From the NCBI GenBank assembly GCA_009838975.1, contig VXQO01000057.1, positions 1 through 50,064 of the forward strand: 50,064 nt of DNA, in the 5' to 3' direction. Positions 30,746-45,126 of the stretch are shown piece after piece. The number at the start of each line of letters is the position of its first letter. Position 1 is the stretch's first letter. Below the pieces are notes generated by a model. It ran no database searches, was not told the DNA's origin, and worked only from the letters and a program-made list of their open reading frames with translations. This DNA is from Gemmatimonadota bacterium (GTDB taxonomy: Bacteria; Gemmatimonadota; Gemmatimonadetes; Longimicrobiales; Gaopeijiaceae). Both the position numbers and the translations under genes were made by a program.

Positions 30746-32161
30746 TCACACGACGGGTAGGCCGCGGGCCGCAAGCACCCTCTGCCTCCGCCCCAGCCAC
30801 AGCGCCACCACCAGCCAGACCCCCGCCACCGGCACCATGAACCACGCCAGCGCGGCGGTGCCCAGCCCCAGCGCGCCCAGCCCGGCGAACGACCATGCCC
30901 CCACCTGGTCGCCGGCGCGATAGACGAAGGTGTCGTTGAAGTTCTTGGCCTTGTACTTGTCGCGCCGCGGCAGGACGGTGTAGAGCACCTCGCGGGTCGG
31001 CACCGCGACCGCGAAGTTGCCCGCGCGCCTCAACACCTGAAACACCACGAAGACCGCGAAGACCGGCGCCGCCCCGAGCGCCAGGAAGCCCGCCACGCTC
31101 AGCAGCGGAAGCAGCGCGAGGGTGACGCCCACGCCCAGCCACCGCATGATGCGGCCGGTGAGGAAAAGTTGGGTGACGAGCGTCAACACGTTCACGGCGA
31201 GGTCGATGCGCGCGAAAACGGAAGTCCTCTCCGCAGGGTCGGAGAAGGTTCCCGACATGATCTCGGCCTGGATGTTGTACAGGAACGTGGACCCCACCGT
31301 GAACAGCAGCATGAAGGCGCAGATGCCGAGCAGGTAGGGGGAGCCCGCCACCCGCCGTATCCCGTCCAGGGCGGAACCGCCGATGACGGGGTCGGGCTCG
31401 GACGCCTGCGAGGGCTCGGACGCCTGCGAGGGGTTGGACGCCTGCGAGGGCTCGGCGCTGTCTGACCGCAGCTTGCCGACCCGCCGATCCAGGCCCCTCA
31501 CGCACGCGACTGCGCACTCGAGCAGGACGATCGAGAACCACAACAGCGCTGCGGCGCTGAGTTCCCCAACGAGAAACGCCGTGATCGACGACCCCACGAT
31601 CCCGCCAAGGGTGCCGCCCACCCCGATCAGCCCGAAGAGGCGCCGGCTCTGGCGTTCCCGATAGATGTCGGTCATGAACGACCAGAAGACCGACACCACA
31701 AAGAGGTTGAAGACGCTGATCCACACGAAGAAGGTGCGTCCCACCCAGACGGCCGCGGCGGAGCCTTCCGCCACCCCGCTCAGCAGAAAATAGTAAACAA
31801 TAAGGTTTAGTATGAAGAAGCGGTAGGTGATCGAGACAAAACGCTTCCGCGGCCACCGGGAGACGATTGACGCGAAGATCGGGTGCGCTACCAGCATTGC
31901 GGACAGCGTGGCCGTGAACAGCCAGGGGATATTCTCGACGCCGCCGGCGACACCCATCTCTTCCCGGATCGGGCGCATCACGTAGTACGCCGAGAGGATG
32001 AAAAAGAAGTACGCCGCCGACAGGAGGACGATCGCGCTTTCCTCGGGGCGGGTGCCGGTCAGGCGGGCAAGCACACTGGCCCGCTCGGCTTTCGAGGATG
32101 TGTTCAGTGTGAGCTCCCGTGCTCTTCGCGGCTCGCGGCTTGGCCTCGTCCCCCGCGGCAA
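30746..32161 (-). CDS. NTP/NDP-exchange-type MFS transporter
   Basis: The 471-residue membrane protein with about 12 helices has the opening LSAAYFFFILSAYYVMRPIREEMGVAGG-type motif (key part YYVMRPIREEMGV), as in bacterial Npt1/Npt2-like nucleotide-exchange transporters. Other marks are GLIGVGGTLGGIVG and PTREVLYTVLPRRDKYKAKN. Its substrate is unproven. TTG 32161 gives the longest form without a ribosome site; GTG 32074 is a reasonable alternative just before the first helix. The central cytoplasmic linker contains an 18-base repeat (Ser-Gln-Ala-Ser-Glu-Pro type). About 350 bases into the gene lies a near copy of the ArsR operator (31790-31813), coded with unusually AT-rich codons. Divergent from its paralogue at 32306. 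Confidence 0.82.
   Translation of the reverse strand: MPRGTRPSREPRRARELTLNTSSKAERASVLARLTGTRPEESAIVLLSAAYFFFILSAYYVMRPIREEMGVAGGVENIPWLFTATLSAMLVAHPIFASIVSRWPRKRFVSITYRFFILNLIVYYFLLSGVAEGSAAAVWVGRTFFVWISVFNLFVVSVFWSFMTDIYRERQSRRLFGLIGVGGTLGGIVGSSITAFLVGELSAAALLWFSIVLLECAVACVRGLDRRVGKLRSDSAEPSQASNPSQASEPSQASEPDPVIGGSALDGIRRVAGSPYLLGICAFMLLFTVGSTFLYNIQAEIMSGTFSDPAERTSVFARIDLAVNVLTLVTQLFLTGRIMRWLGVGVTLALLPLLSVAGFLALGAAPVFAVFVVFQVLRRAGNFAVAVPTREVLYTVLPRRDKYKAKNFNDTFVYRAGDQVGAWSFAGLGALGLGTAALAWFMVPVAGVWLVVALWLGRRQRVLAARGLPVV
31394..31453. repeat. 18-base coding tandem repeat in a transporter linker
   Basis: GGGCTCGGACGCCTGCGA occurs at 31394-31411 and 31412-31429, then with two changes at 31430-31447, followed by the first bases of a fourth copy. 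On the minus strand it encodes a Ser-Gln-Ala-Ser-Glu-Pro-type hexapeptide repeat in the loop between the two halves of the transporter. Confidence 0.8.
31790..31813. promoter_or_regulatory. Inverted repeat inside a CDS, near copy of the ArsR operator
   Basis: Arms ATAGTAAAC (31790-31798) and GTTTAGTAT (31805-31813) flank a 6-base spacer. The element is 20/24 identical to the inverted repeat at 45103-45126 and has one mismatch between its own arms. It lies in codons for part of a transmembrane helix, using ATA, CTA, CTT, ATT and GTT, which are rare in the rest of the window. Confidence 0.45.
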
Positions 32162-32305
32162 CGTGTGACGCGACGGGTCATGGCGTCGTCGTCGGCTTGC
32201 CTCCGATGGAGAATGGGCTTCTTTTCGAGAACGTCAATCCCGGGTGGCTCCGGGGCGAACCAGATGGCGACTTGTAGAGCCTCGCATGGCAGAGGAGGAG
32301 TTACA

Positions 32306-33700
32306 GTGTTGAACCGTGCGTGGCTTGTCGTGGCAGGGCTGCTGAAGAGGCTGGCAAACATGAAGCGCGGTGAACTTCCCCTTGCGCTGATGTCTGCCCT
32401 CTTCTTCTTCCTCGTCCTCTGCGGCTACTTCTTCCTCCGTCCCGTGCGCGAAGCAATGGGGGTCGCGCGGGGGATGGACGAGCTGCGGTGGCTGTTCGTG
32501 GCGACTTCGGTGACGTCGCTGGCTGCGGTGCTGGCCTTCGGCGGCGTGGTGGCGCGCATGAATCGCCGCCGCTTCATTCCGGTCGCATACCTGTTCGTGA
32601 TCGTCTGCCTGATCGGGTTCGCGGGGCTGCTGATCCAGGACGTGCGGGCCGGGGGCGGGCTGATCGGGACCGACGCCCAGACGGGGCTTTCGCGCGGGGT
32701 CGGGTACACCTTCTACATCTGGCTGACCGTCATCAACCTGTTCACCACCAGCGTCTTCTGGGCGTTCATGGTGGACATCTTCGACGTGGACCAGGGGAAA
32801 CGGCTGTTCGCTTTCGTCGGGATCGGCGGGACGCTCGGCGCGCTCGCGGGCGGCTGGGCGACCAACGTGATCAGCGGCATGACCGAGTCGCCTTACCTGC
32901 CCGCCGGGCTGATGCTGACCGGGGCGGGGTGCTTTGCGCTCGCGATCGCGGTGATGCTGATGCTGGACAAGATGGCGGTGCGGTCGGATGCCTCGTCCCT
33001 GGGTGCGGTGGGAGGCGGGCCGGCCGGCAGCGGCGCGGCGGCCGGGGATTCGGCTCCGGCGGACGACGGCGGCGAGATCGGAGGCTCCTTCTGGGAGGGC
33101 GCACAGGCCGTCCTGACATCTCCCTACCTGCTCGGGGTCGGCCTCTGGGTCGTGTTCATGGCCATCTCGAACACGATGATCTACTTCACCCAGGCGAACA
33201 TCATCCTCAACGACTCCGACACCTTCAGCCAGCTGGTCGGGAGCTTTGCCCAGTTCGACTACGTGGCGCAGATCGTGACGCTGATCACGCAGGTCTTCAT
33301 CACCACCCACCTCATCCGGAAGGTCGGTGTGGGTTGGACGCTGGCAGTGCTGCCGCTCGTCACCCTGGCCGGCTTCGCGGTGCTGGCGGTGTGGCCCGTC
33401 TACGGGGTGATGCTGCTCTTCCAGGCCATCCACCGCGCGACCCGCTACGCGATTTCCAGACCCTCGCGGGAGACGCTCTTCAGCGTCGTGACCCCGTCGG
33501 AGAAGTACAAGGCCAAGCCGGTCGTGGACGTCTTCCTGTACCGCTTTGGCGACGCGGCCGGCGCGGGGATCGACGGGATGTTCGCCGCGCTGGGGCTGAC
33601 GCTGGCCTGGGTGGCGATGTCGACTGCGCCGCTGGCGGCCATGTGGATCGCGCTATCGATCGGGATGGGGAGGGCGCAACTGCGGAAGATGGCCGGCTAG
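32306..33700 (+). CDS. NTP/NDP-exchange-type MFS transporter, paralogue
   Basis: The 464-residue membrane protein is a clear paralogue of its divergent neighbour: GYFFLRPVREAMGVARGMDE, FWAFMVDIFDVDQGKRLFAF, GIGGTLGALAGG and PSRETLFSVVTPSEKYKAKP line up with that protein's segments. Its middle linker (residues about 230-260) is Gly/Ala/Asp-rich rather than repetitive. GTG 32306 has AGAGGAGG just upstream (32291-32298); the frame is open further left but without coding character. About 140 bases separate the two transporter starts and must hold both promoters. It may exchange nucleotides, but the substrate is not shown by sequence. Confidence 0.84.
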   Translation: MLNRAWLVVAGLLKRLANMKRGELPLALMSALFFFLVLCGYFFLRPVREAMGVARGMDELRWLFVATSVTSLAAVLAFGGVVARMNRRRFIPVAYLFVIVCLIGFAGLLIQDVRAGGGLIGTDAQTGLSRGVGYTFYIWLTVINLFTTSVFWAFMVDIFDVDQGKRLFAFVGIGGTLGALAGGWATNVISGMTESPYLPAGLMLTGAGCFALAIAVMLMLDKMAVRSDASSLGAVGGGPAGSGAAAGDSAPADDGGEIGGSFWEGAQAVLTSPYLLGVGLWVVFMAISNTMIYFTQANIILNDSDTFSQLVGSFAQFDYVAQIVTLITQVFITTHLIRKVGVGWTLAVLPLVTLAGFAVLAVWPVYGVMLLFQAIHRATRYAISRPSRETLFSVVTPSEKYKAKPVVDVFLYRFGDAAGAGIDGMFAALGLTLAWVAMSTAPLAAMWIALSIGMGRAQLRKMAG

Positions 33701-43345: not shown

Positions 43346-44272
43346 CTATCCGGGTCCCCCGAGTGGCCTCCCGTCCAGCCCCCAGGCCTGGTTGATCTCG
43401 AAGCCCAGGTGGGCGAGCGCGGTGGCTGCGATGTCGACGATGTTGGCTGGCCCGGGAGGCGGCCAGTCGGCGGTCGGGGACCTGCCCTCGCTGCCACCAA
43501 CCCCGCTCGCCAGTATGAAGATCGTCATCTCTTCGGGCGAGTCCCCGCCGTGACCCCCGTCCTCGCGCCTGCCATGGTCGGTGCTGACGAGCACCAGCCA
43601 GTCCTCGTTCGCCAGGCCGGGCCGGGCGCGCACCGCGTCGATCAGCATGCCGACGTGCCGGTCCGCCAGCGCGATCGCGTCGCGGTACTCGGAGCCGATG
43701 GAGCCGTGCCGGTGGCTGGTCTCGTCGGGATTGCCGAGGTAGACGAACATGGCGTCGGGGTCGGCTTCACCGAGGTGGCGCACGGCGTGCGCGGTGACCT
43801 CGCCGTCGGCCTCGGCCCACCCGTGCTCGTAGCCGTCAAGCACGGCCCGCTCGTCGACCGCCGCCGGGACAACGGGGCCGCCTTCGGGAAGCTCCGCGAG
43901 CGGCAGCCAGTCCAGCGCGGCAAAGGTGGACAGCTCGGGGCGCTCTCTTTCCGCGCGGGTGAGGAAGCCGGGCCAGGTGTCGTAGTCGCGGCCCGAGAAA
44001 CTGTTGTCCGTGACGCCGTGCTTCTCCGGCCAGACACCAGTCAGCATCGAGGACCAGGACGGGCCGCTGACGGAGGGGGTGGTGGTGCGAGCCTCGTCGG
44101 TGTACCAGCCGCTTGCCGCCAGCGCGTCGATGTTGGGGGTGGGGACCTCGGCAAGCACGTCGGGACGCACGCCGTCGATACCGATCAGCAGGACCCTGGA
44201 CGTCGGTTGGGCCGCAATCTCCAAGGGGGTGGCCAACGCAAGCGCCGTGGCGCAGATCAGTGTCGTCCTCAT
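43346..44272 (-). CDS. Exported type I phosphodiesterase / alkaline-phosphatase-superfamily enzyme
   Basis: The 308-residue protein has a signal peptide (TTLICATALALATPLEIAAQ) and the metal sites of the phosphodiesterase/nucleotide pyrophosphatase branch: LLIGIDGVRPD (Asp), the nucleophile region TPSVSGPSWSSMLTG, GNPDETSHRHG and STDHGRREDGGHGG. It should hydrolyse a phosphodiester or phosphoester outside the cytoplasm; the substrate is not clear. ATG 44272 overlaps the SRPBCC stop as ATGA, so it is the third gene of the ArsR operon. An in-frame start 45 bases further upstream would lie inside the SRPBCC gene. Confidence 0.87.
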   Translation of the reverse strand: MRTTLICATALALATPLEIAAQPTSRVLLIGIDGVRPDVLAEVPTPNIDALAASGWYTDEARTTTPSVSGPSWSSMLTGVWPEKHGVTDNSFSGRDYDTWPGFLTRAERERPELSTFAALDWLPLAELPEGGPVVPAAVDERAVLDGYEHGWAEADGEVTAHAVRHLGEADPDAMFVYLGNPDETSHRHGSIGSEYRDAIALADRHVGMLIDAVRARPGLANEDWLVLVSTDHGRREDGGHGGDSPEEMTIFILASGVGGSEGRSPTADWPPPGPANIVDIAATALAHLGFEINQAWGLDGRPLGGPG

Positions 44273-44712
44273 TCCGCAGCCACCATTTCGGCGAACCTTC
44301 CGACGCAGATCCTCCACCCCTCCTCGTGTCCGTCCCGGTCGTCCGGCGTCGGGAAGCCCTCATGGGTCAATCGAATCTCGGTCCCCCCTTCGACCGGAAC
44401 GAACTCCACCGTCACCACCGTCTCCGCCTTCATCGCGTGCGCCTCTTCCTTCCAGCCCCATGTGTACACCACCCGGCGCGGCGGGTCGACCTCGCGGTAG
44501 GTGCCGCAGGCGGTAAACGGCCCGCCCTCGACATGCATGCGAATCGAGTAGTGCCCACCGACCCGCAGGTCGATCTCCACCTCCACGGTCGCGCCCGGAT
44601 CCGGGCAGGTCCAGCGCTCGACCTGGTCCGGGCTGGTCCACGCCTCGAAGGCCCGCTCGGGACTCGCGGCCACCGTGCGAACTAGTTGCAGTGCTCTTGT
44701 CATCGCAGTCAT
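44269..44712 (-). CDS. SRPBCC (AHSA1/START-like) domain protein
   Basis: The 147-residue protein is a classic AHSA1-type lipid/hydrophobic-ligand-binding fold: LVRTVAASPERAFEAWTSPD, WTCPDPGATVEVEIDLRVGG, GTYREVDPPRRVVYTW and FVPVEGGTEIRLTHEGFP, ending DGHEEGWRICVGRFAEMV. It has no signal. These proteins are very often encoded right after ArsR-type regulators, as here, seven bases after the ArsR gene. Start at ATG 44712, or ATG 44703 nine bases in. Function unknown. Confidence 0.9.
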   Translation of the reverse strand: MTAMTRALQLVRTVAASPERAFEAWTSPDQVERWTCPDPGATVEVEIDLRVGGHYSIRMHVEGGPFTACGTYREVDPPRRVVYTWGWKEEAHAMKAETVVTVEFVPVEGGTEIRLTHEGFPTPDDRDGHEEGWRICVGRFAEMVAAE

Positions 44713-44719
44713 CGGCGTG

Positions 44720-45052
44720 TCACTCGGAGCCTTTCAGGTAGCGCGCCAGCGCGTCCAGCTGCGCGGACCAGTACCGCTGATGGGTGTCGATCCAGTCCTT
44801 CGCCTCGCCCAGGGTGTCCGGCTCGTAGCGGCACCGGCGCGCCCGCCCCTCCTTCTTCCTGCTGATCAACCCTGCGTCCTCCAGCACCCTCACGTGCCTG
44901 GAAACGGCCACGAGCGACATGTCGAAGGGCTCTGCCAGATCGGTCACCGACGCCACTTCTCCCTGGGCCAGGCGGCCCAGAATGGCGCGCCGCACCGGGT
45001 GGGCAAGCGCGGAGAAGGTGCGGTCGAGAGCGTCGTCATCCACGGGGAGCAT
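44720..45052 (-). CDS. ArsR-family transcriptional regulator
   Basis: The 110-residue winged-helix protein begins LPVDDDALDRTFSALAHPVRRAILGRL and has the recognition segment SVTDLAEPFDMSLVAVSRHV (about residues 37-56), then EGRARRCRYEPDTL in the wing. It has no Cys metal site, matching the ArsR branch that accompanies SRPBCC genes and does not sense metal in the classic way. ATG 45052 has AGGAGG in place; upstream in-frame starts would run through the operator. It probably represses the operon by binding the inverted repeat about 50 bases upstream. Confidence 0.92.
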   Translation of the reverse strand: MLPVDDDALDRTFSALAHPVRRAILGRLAQGEVASVTDLAEPFDMSLVAVSRHVRVLEDAGLISRKKEGRARRCRYEPDTLGEAKDWIDTHQRYWSAQLDALARYLKGSE

Positions 45053-45102: not shown

Positions 45103-45126
45103 ATACTAAACACAATGGTTTAGTAT
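45103..45126. promoter_or_regulatory. Inverted-repeat operator between ArsR operon and TonB receptor gene
   Basis: Arms ATACTAAAC (45103-45111) and GTTTAGTAT (45118-45126) are perfect inverted copies around a 6-base spacer. This ACTAAAC/GTTTAGT form is common ahead of ArsR-SRPBCC operons, so self-binding is likely. Because it also lies about 100 bases before the rightward TonB receptor gene, it could affect both directions. Confidence 0.65.

Follow-up and report, generated by a model that had tools for sequence, protein, structure and literature searches.

A stretch of 50,064 nucleotides from a Gemmatimonadota bacterium (contig VXQO01000057.1, hereafter the window) carries, at positions 31790-31813 and within the coding sequence of a transporter gene, a palindromic element that closely resembles the operator of an ArsR-family regulator encoded in the same window. 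Why should an operator-like sequence lie inside a gene, and is it kept there for its protein or for its DNA? The element reads ATAGTAAAC-N6-GTTTAGTAT, or ATACTAAAC CTTATT GTTTACTAT on the coding (minus) strand, and 17 of its 18 arm bases match the operator at 45103-45126 (ATACTAAAC ACAATG GTTTAGTAT), a perfect palindrome (18/18 arm bases) located 50 bp upstream of the ArsR start. These two elements and their 17-base likeness, already described in an initial annotation of the window, were confirmed. Allowing up to three mismatches, the palindrome pattern matched the window at 31790 and 45103 only, and no match was obtained in 100 dinucleotide-preserving shuffles, giving a chance expectation of about zero.

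Evidence for selection on DNA within the transporter gene

The MFS-type transporter gene (30746-32074, minus strand; MFS_1, E = 4.4e-09) was delimited by a codon-usage gene call; its start codon is uncertain, the open reading frame extending to 32161, and the 32074 end is approximate. The element lies about 260 nt into this gene, where the minus-strand codons ATA CTA AAC CTT ATT GTT TAC TAT encode ILNLIVYY. Its sole arm mismatch falls in the TAC codon, at which a perfect palindrome would create an in-frame TAG stop. In four genomes a site also lies within the ThiI gene, read in the same frame, and there too the palindrome is broken at this codon (AAG, GAG or AAA for TAG); this frame signature is an independent case of a mismatch avoiding the stop.

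We compared 23 genomes of the genus, of which 10 encode the ArsR protein (ArsR+) and 13 do not (ArsR-). Transporter orthologs are present in all 23, and the site is kept in seven, all of them ArsR+. The seven site-bearing genes follow the pattern ATA/ATG CTA/CTT AAC CTT/CTA ... GTT TAC TAT, whereas the ArsR- genomes and three ArsR+ genomes (G001, G003 and G019) have other residues at this position, mostly with GC-ending codons. In the site-bearing orthologs, A/T content at third codon positions reaches 0.68 in the site window against a gene mean of 0.125, which ranks this window first of 397, while the same position ranks 154th of 387 in the site-less orthologs. Moreover, the GTT and TAT codons of the site are invariant in 7/7 orthologs, compared with none of 24 other A/T-ending codons (Fisher p = 0.003).

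The initial annotation had attributed these codons to selection on DNA rather than on protein, and the composition and invariance of the site window bear this out; relatives keeping the same protein with freely varying codons were looked for among the orthologs and not found. Selection seems to have gone beyond codon choice, as the protein itself is altered (C to N, together with neighbouring residues). Selection on the DNA at 31790-31813 is thus strongly supported by the comparison of orthologous sequences.

A role of the palindrome in RNA was also considered. Changes in the arms mostly break hairpin pairing (57 of 84), with a single double change, which speaks for a function in DNA and not in RNA; an RNA hairpin terminator was rejected, base pairing not being maintained by compensatory change. 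A strict detector of hairpins followed by T runs returned no hit at 53 site-less convergent junctions, at 27 convergent junctions with sites or in 400 coding controls, and so gave no contrast.

Two other features of the transporter region were observed. An 18-base tandem repeat (31394-31455, 3.4 copies) codes for SEPSQA-type repeats within the transporter gene, and this gene and a divergently oriented paralog (30746-33700 for the pair, which share about 38% identity) are neighbours in most of the genomes compared within the genus.

The regulator and the distribution of its candidate sites

The ArsR gene reported at 44720-45052 on the minus strand encodes a winged-helix protein (P0002) whose family assignment was verified by matches to HTH_20 (2.8e-15) and HTH_5/ArsR (7.5e-09), both above gathering scores. 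It also scores 74.7 bits, against a cut-off of 55, for NCBIfam NF033788 (metalloregulator ArsR/SmtB family, HTH_metalloreg). Metal sensing through the CxC motif of ArsR/SmtB metalloregulators is unlikely, because this motif was not found in the P0002 sequence, which has a single cysteine. Directly downstream, an AHSA1/SRPBCC-domain protein gene (44269-44712, minus strand; AHSA1, E = 4e-33) probably forms one operon with arsR.

Regarding the ArsR promoter, in 10/10 orthologs of the genus the palindrome precedes the start by about 46-53 bp, with 0-3 mismatches. The same palindrome, also with 0-3 mismatches, stands shortly upstream of 10 homologs (51-65% identity) encoded in other genera of the family, and in the genomes of these homologs it is the only site at two mismatches or fewer. 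Some more distant homologs have different palindromes at a similar spacing, as judged by eye. The regulator thus carries a putative autoregulatory palindrome in its own promoter, a trait of the ArsR/SmtB family.

The picture differs within the genus. The source genome (4.5 Mb, 162 contigs) contains 24 palindromes at three mismatches or fewer, the reversed control giving none. Sites at one mismatch or fewer were detected in 10/10 ArsR+ genomes and in 0/13 ArsR- genomes (Fisher p = 9e-7). At up to three mismatches, ArsR+ genomes hold 12-31 sites each, a set with the consensus [A/G]ATACTAAAC-N6-GTTTAGTAT[T/C], while 12 of the 13 ArsR- genomes hold none and the remaining one, G006, holds a single site with three mismatches. 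The motif also occurs in named sequence records, many of which are Gemmatimonadota metagenome-assembled genomes. Monophyly of the ArsR+ genomes was rejected on an rpoB tree (approximately unbiased test, p = 0.005); these genomes do not form one clade, so the co-distribution cannot be put down to one clade and involves at least two events, in which loss or a second gain appears to have moved ArsR and the sites together.

Based on this co-distribution and on the own-promoter sites, the proposal that the protein encoded at 44720-45052 binds both the 31790 and the 45103 elements is very probably correct, and the element at 31790-31813 is, with high confidence, a selected ArsR site. Its description as a copy of the 45103 operator holds for the likeness but not for any special pairing of the two. 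A loop was also suggested initially; as a private link between 31790 and 45103 it is not specifically supported, since the element is only one member of a dispersed set of about 24.

Placement of the sites and possible modes of action

The placement of sites at one mismatch or fewer was counted, genome-wide placement being drawn from retrieved loci; genes were called by codon usage, and individual boundaries may be off. By the orientation of the flanking genes, 24 sites were convergent, 32 tandem and 10 divergent (seven of these in the ArsR promoter), and a further 11 lay within genes. Convergent junctions account for 24 of the 66 intergenic sites, where a length-weighted intergenic null predicts about 10%, and divergent regions for 10, where about 28% is predicted; the convergent excess has p = 1e-8 when orthologous sites are treated as independent. 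The distance from stop codon to site is mostly 0-50 bp, and in several cases the site overlaps the stop codon itself. Neighbours are shared across species in about 20 groups of sites, whose arms are conserved and whose spacers drift.

That sites follow stop codons or separate convergent genes points to a barrier to RNA polymerase. A local autoregulator, with a single own-promoter site in the other genera examined, would probably have acquired many further sites, at which bound ArsR dimers would halt RNA polymerase and thereby end or insulate transcription at gene ends and convergent junctions. At 31790, bound ArsR would attenuate transcription of the transporter. The barrier may be released by a ligand. 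As an overall account, an ArsR site kept inside the gene by selection on DNA, as a member of a lineage-specific set acting through a barrier, is the best explanation we can offer and a reasonably probable one. The roadblock mode of action taken by itself, also raised by the initial annotation, falls somewhat short of probable. The broader conclusion, that an ArsR autoregulator was converted in one Gemmatimonadota genus into a dispersed gene-end and intragenic barrier or a chromosome organiser, reshaping coding sequences on the way, is put forward tentatively, as a possibility.

Several observations weigh against the barrier explanation. Binding by ArsR is a deduction from sequence, and a different gene that travels with ArsR could in principle account for the association. 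Three ArsR+ genomes (G001, G003 and G019) lack the transporter site, which is therefore not indispensable. The convergent excess weakens to p = 0.004 when counted by orthologous group (7/21 groups, classed by hand). Two tandem groups (7 and 8) stand at a near-fixed distance from the downstream start, 97-99 nt in 5/6 and 29-30 nt in 5/5, which fits ordinary promoter control there. Finally, there are hundreds of gene ends but only about 24 sites, so the system is not a general terminator.

The near-fixed spacing of groups 7 and 8 favours an ordinary expanded regulon, in which ArsR would control neighbouring promoters and the gene-end sites would serve the promoter of the next gene or unannotated transcripts. 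Candidate members are peptidases, aminotransferases and the DsbA-like and cytochrome b561 genes; several peptidases, aminotransferases and a peptide-binding protein are indeed encoded next to sites, although neighbour functions are mixed. Such a regulon is rather unlikely, as convergent junctions are over-represented yet offer no downstream start, divergent promoter regions are under-used except that of ArsR itself, and the transporter site lies some 260 nt inside a gene. Avoidance of promoters is what would be expected if ArsR were a sequence-specific nucleoid protein, with sites placed where promoters are least disturbed and perhaps bridged into a domain. The sites are moreover clustered: contig C20 of genome G000 holds 8/24, and the complete G001 chromosome has 7/18 within 110 kb (1.55-1.66 Mb; p = 9e-05 by simulation, the window size having been picked after the cluster was seen). 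However, the G001 clusters (1.55-1.66 and 2.77-2.91 Mb) lie away from dnaA (0.265 Mb) and off the approximate GC-skew switch (placed by sparse sampling at about 2.1-2.25 Mb), and the near-fixed spacing in tandem groups argues for transcriptional roles, so that chromosome organisation appears improbable. In G000, parS was found on the dnaA contig. The palindrome clusters of G000 C20 and G001 1.55-1.66 Mb span about 110-130 kb each.

That the sites are tolerated decoys or inert, as for many intragenic PhoB sites in Escherichia coli, is quite improbable: their arms are conserved across species in about 20 groups while the spacers drift, whereas intragenic PhoB sites are reportedly not conserved (PMC10294691), and residues of the transporter have changed. 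Decoys serving to buffer the amount of ArsR would, for their part, be selected, and the sites may act in this way. Alternatively, DUF222/HNH cassettes could have spread the palindrome as a target for recombination or homing; sites flank or follow some of these cassettes (G003 C109, G016 C69, G001 490534). This origin is scarcely credible for the set, as most HNH copies examined have no site nearby, HNH genes occur in ArsR- genomes as well and many site groups retain the same neighbours across species; the mobile cassette was rejected as the source, explaining a few sites at most. Within this cassette family, palindromes were seen on both flanks in G003 C109 (L160 1385-3001), G016 C69 (L135 3001-4245) and G001 490483-492071, most other examined copies of that HNH subfamily having none nearby. 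In G016, several sites on contigs C7, C13, C16, C18 and C58 lie less than 800 bases from contig ends, and on C7 and C13 that end cuts through an HNH gene.

Comparison with known systems

Intragenic binding sites are frequently regarded as noise. The present comparison amounts to a natural experiment, set up by genomes with and without the regulator and by other genera with a single site; it indicates that selection keeps such sites, and the residues of a membrane protein differ where the site is present. The ArsR set provides a testable example of the transition from an autoregulator with one site to a DNA-binding protein with many, and of whether protein barriers help to end bacterial transcription. 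No report of such a system was found in a limited search of open-access papers, and nothing direct was found on ArsR with SRPBCC operators.

P0002 has the winged-helix DNA-binding domain in common with the NF033788 ArsR/SmtB family and differs from it by the missing CxC motif. Dispersed short palindromes bound by one protein and clustered on the chromosome are known from the MatP/matS and ParB/parS systems, which differ from the ArsR set in protein family; in addition, no origin- or terminus-related position was seen for the ArsR sites.

Among ArsR-like proteins, Rv2034 of Mycobacterium tuberculosis is an autorepressor with a footprinted palindrome, CCGTAAGT-N4-ACTTACGG, in its own promoter; a few further promoter sites were predicted, six in all, sought only within 250 bp upstream of genes (PMC3338718). 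The two regulators share an ArsR-like nature and an own-promoter palindrome, a likeness drawn from descriptions. They differ in that ArsR+ genomes carry 12-31 sites, many outside promoters, with the intragenic ones apparently under selection. As to the putative roadblock, LacI of E. coli illustrates that RNA polymerase can be stalled by a repressor bound to DNA within a transcription unit (PMC4132739), in a reporter system, whereas the ArsR sites form a natural, dispersed set. PhoB of E. coli, like the ArsR protein described here, has many intragenic sites for one regulator, but those of PhoB are reported not to be conserved (PMC10294691), while the ArsR sites are conserved among relatives.
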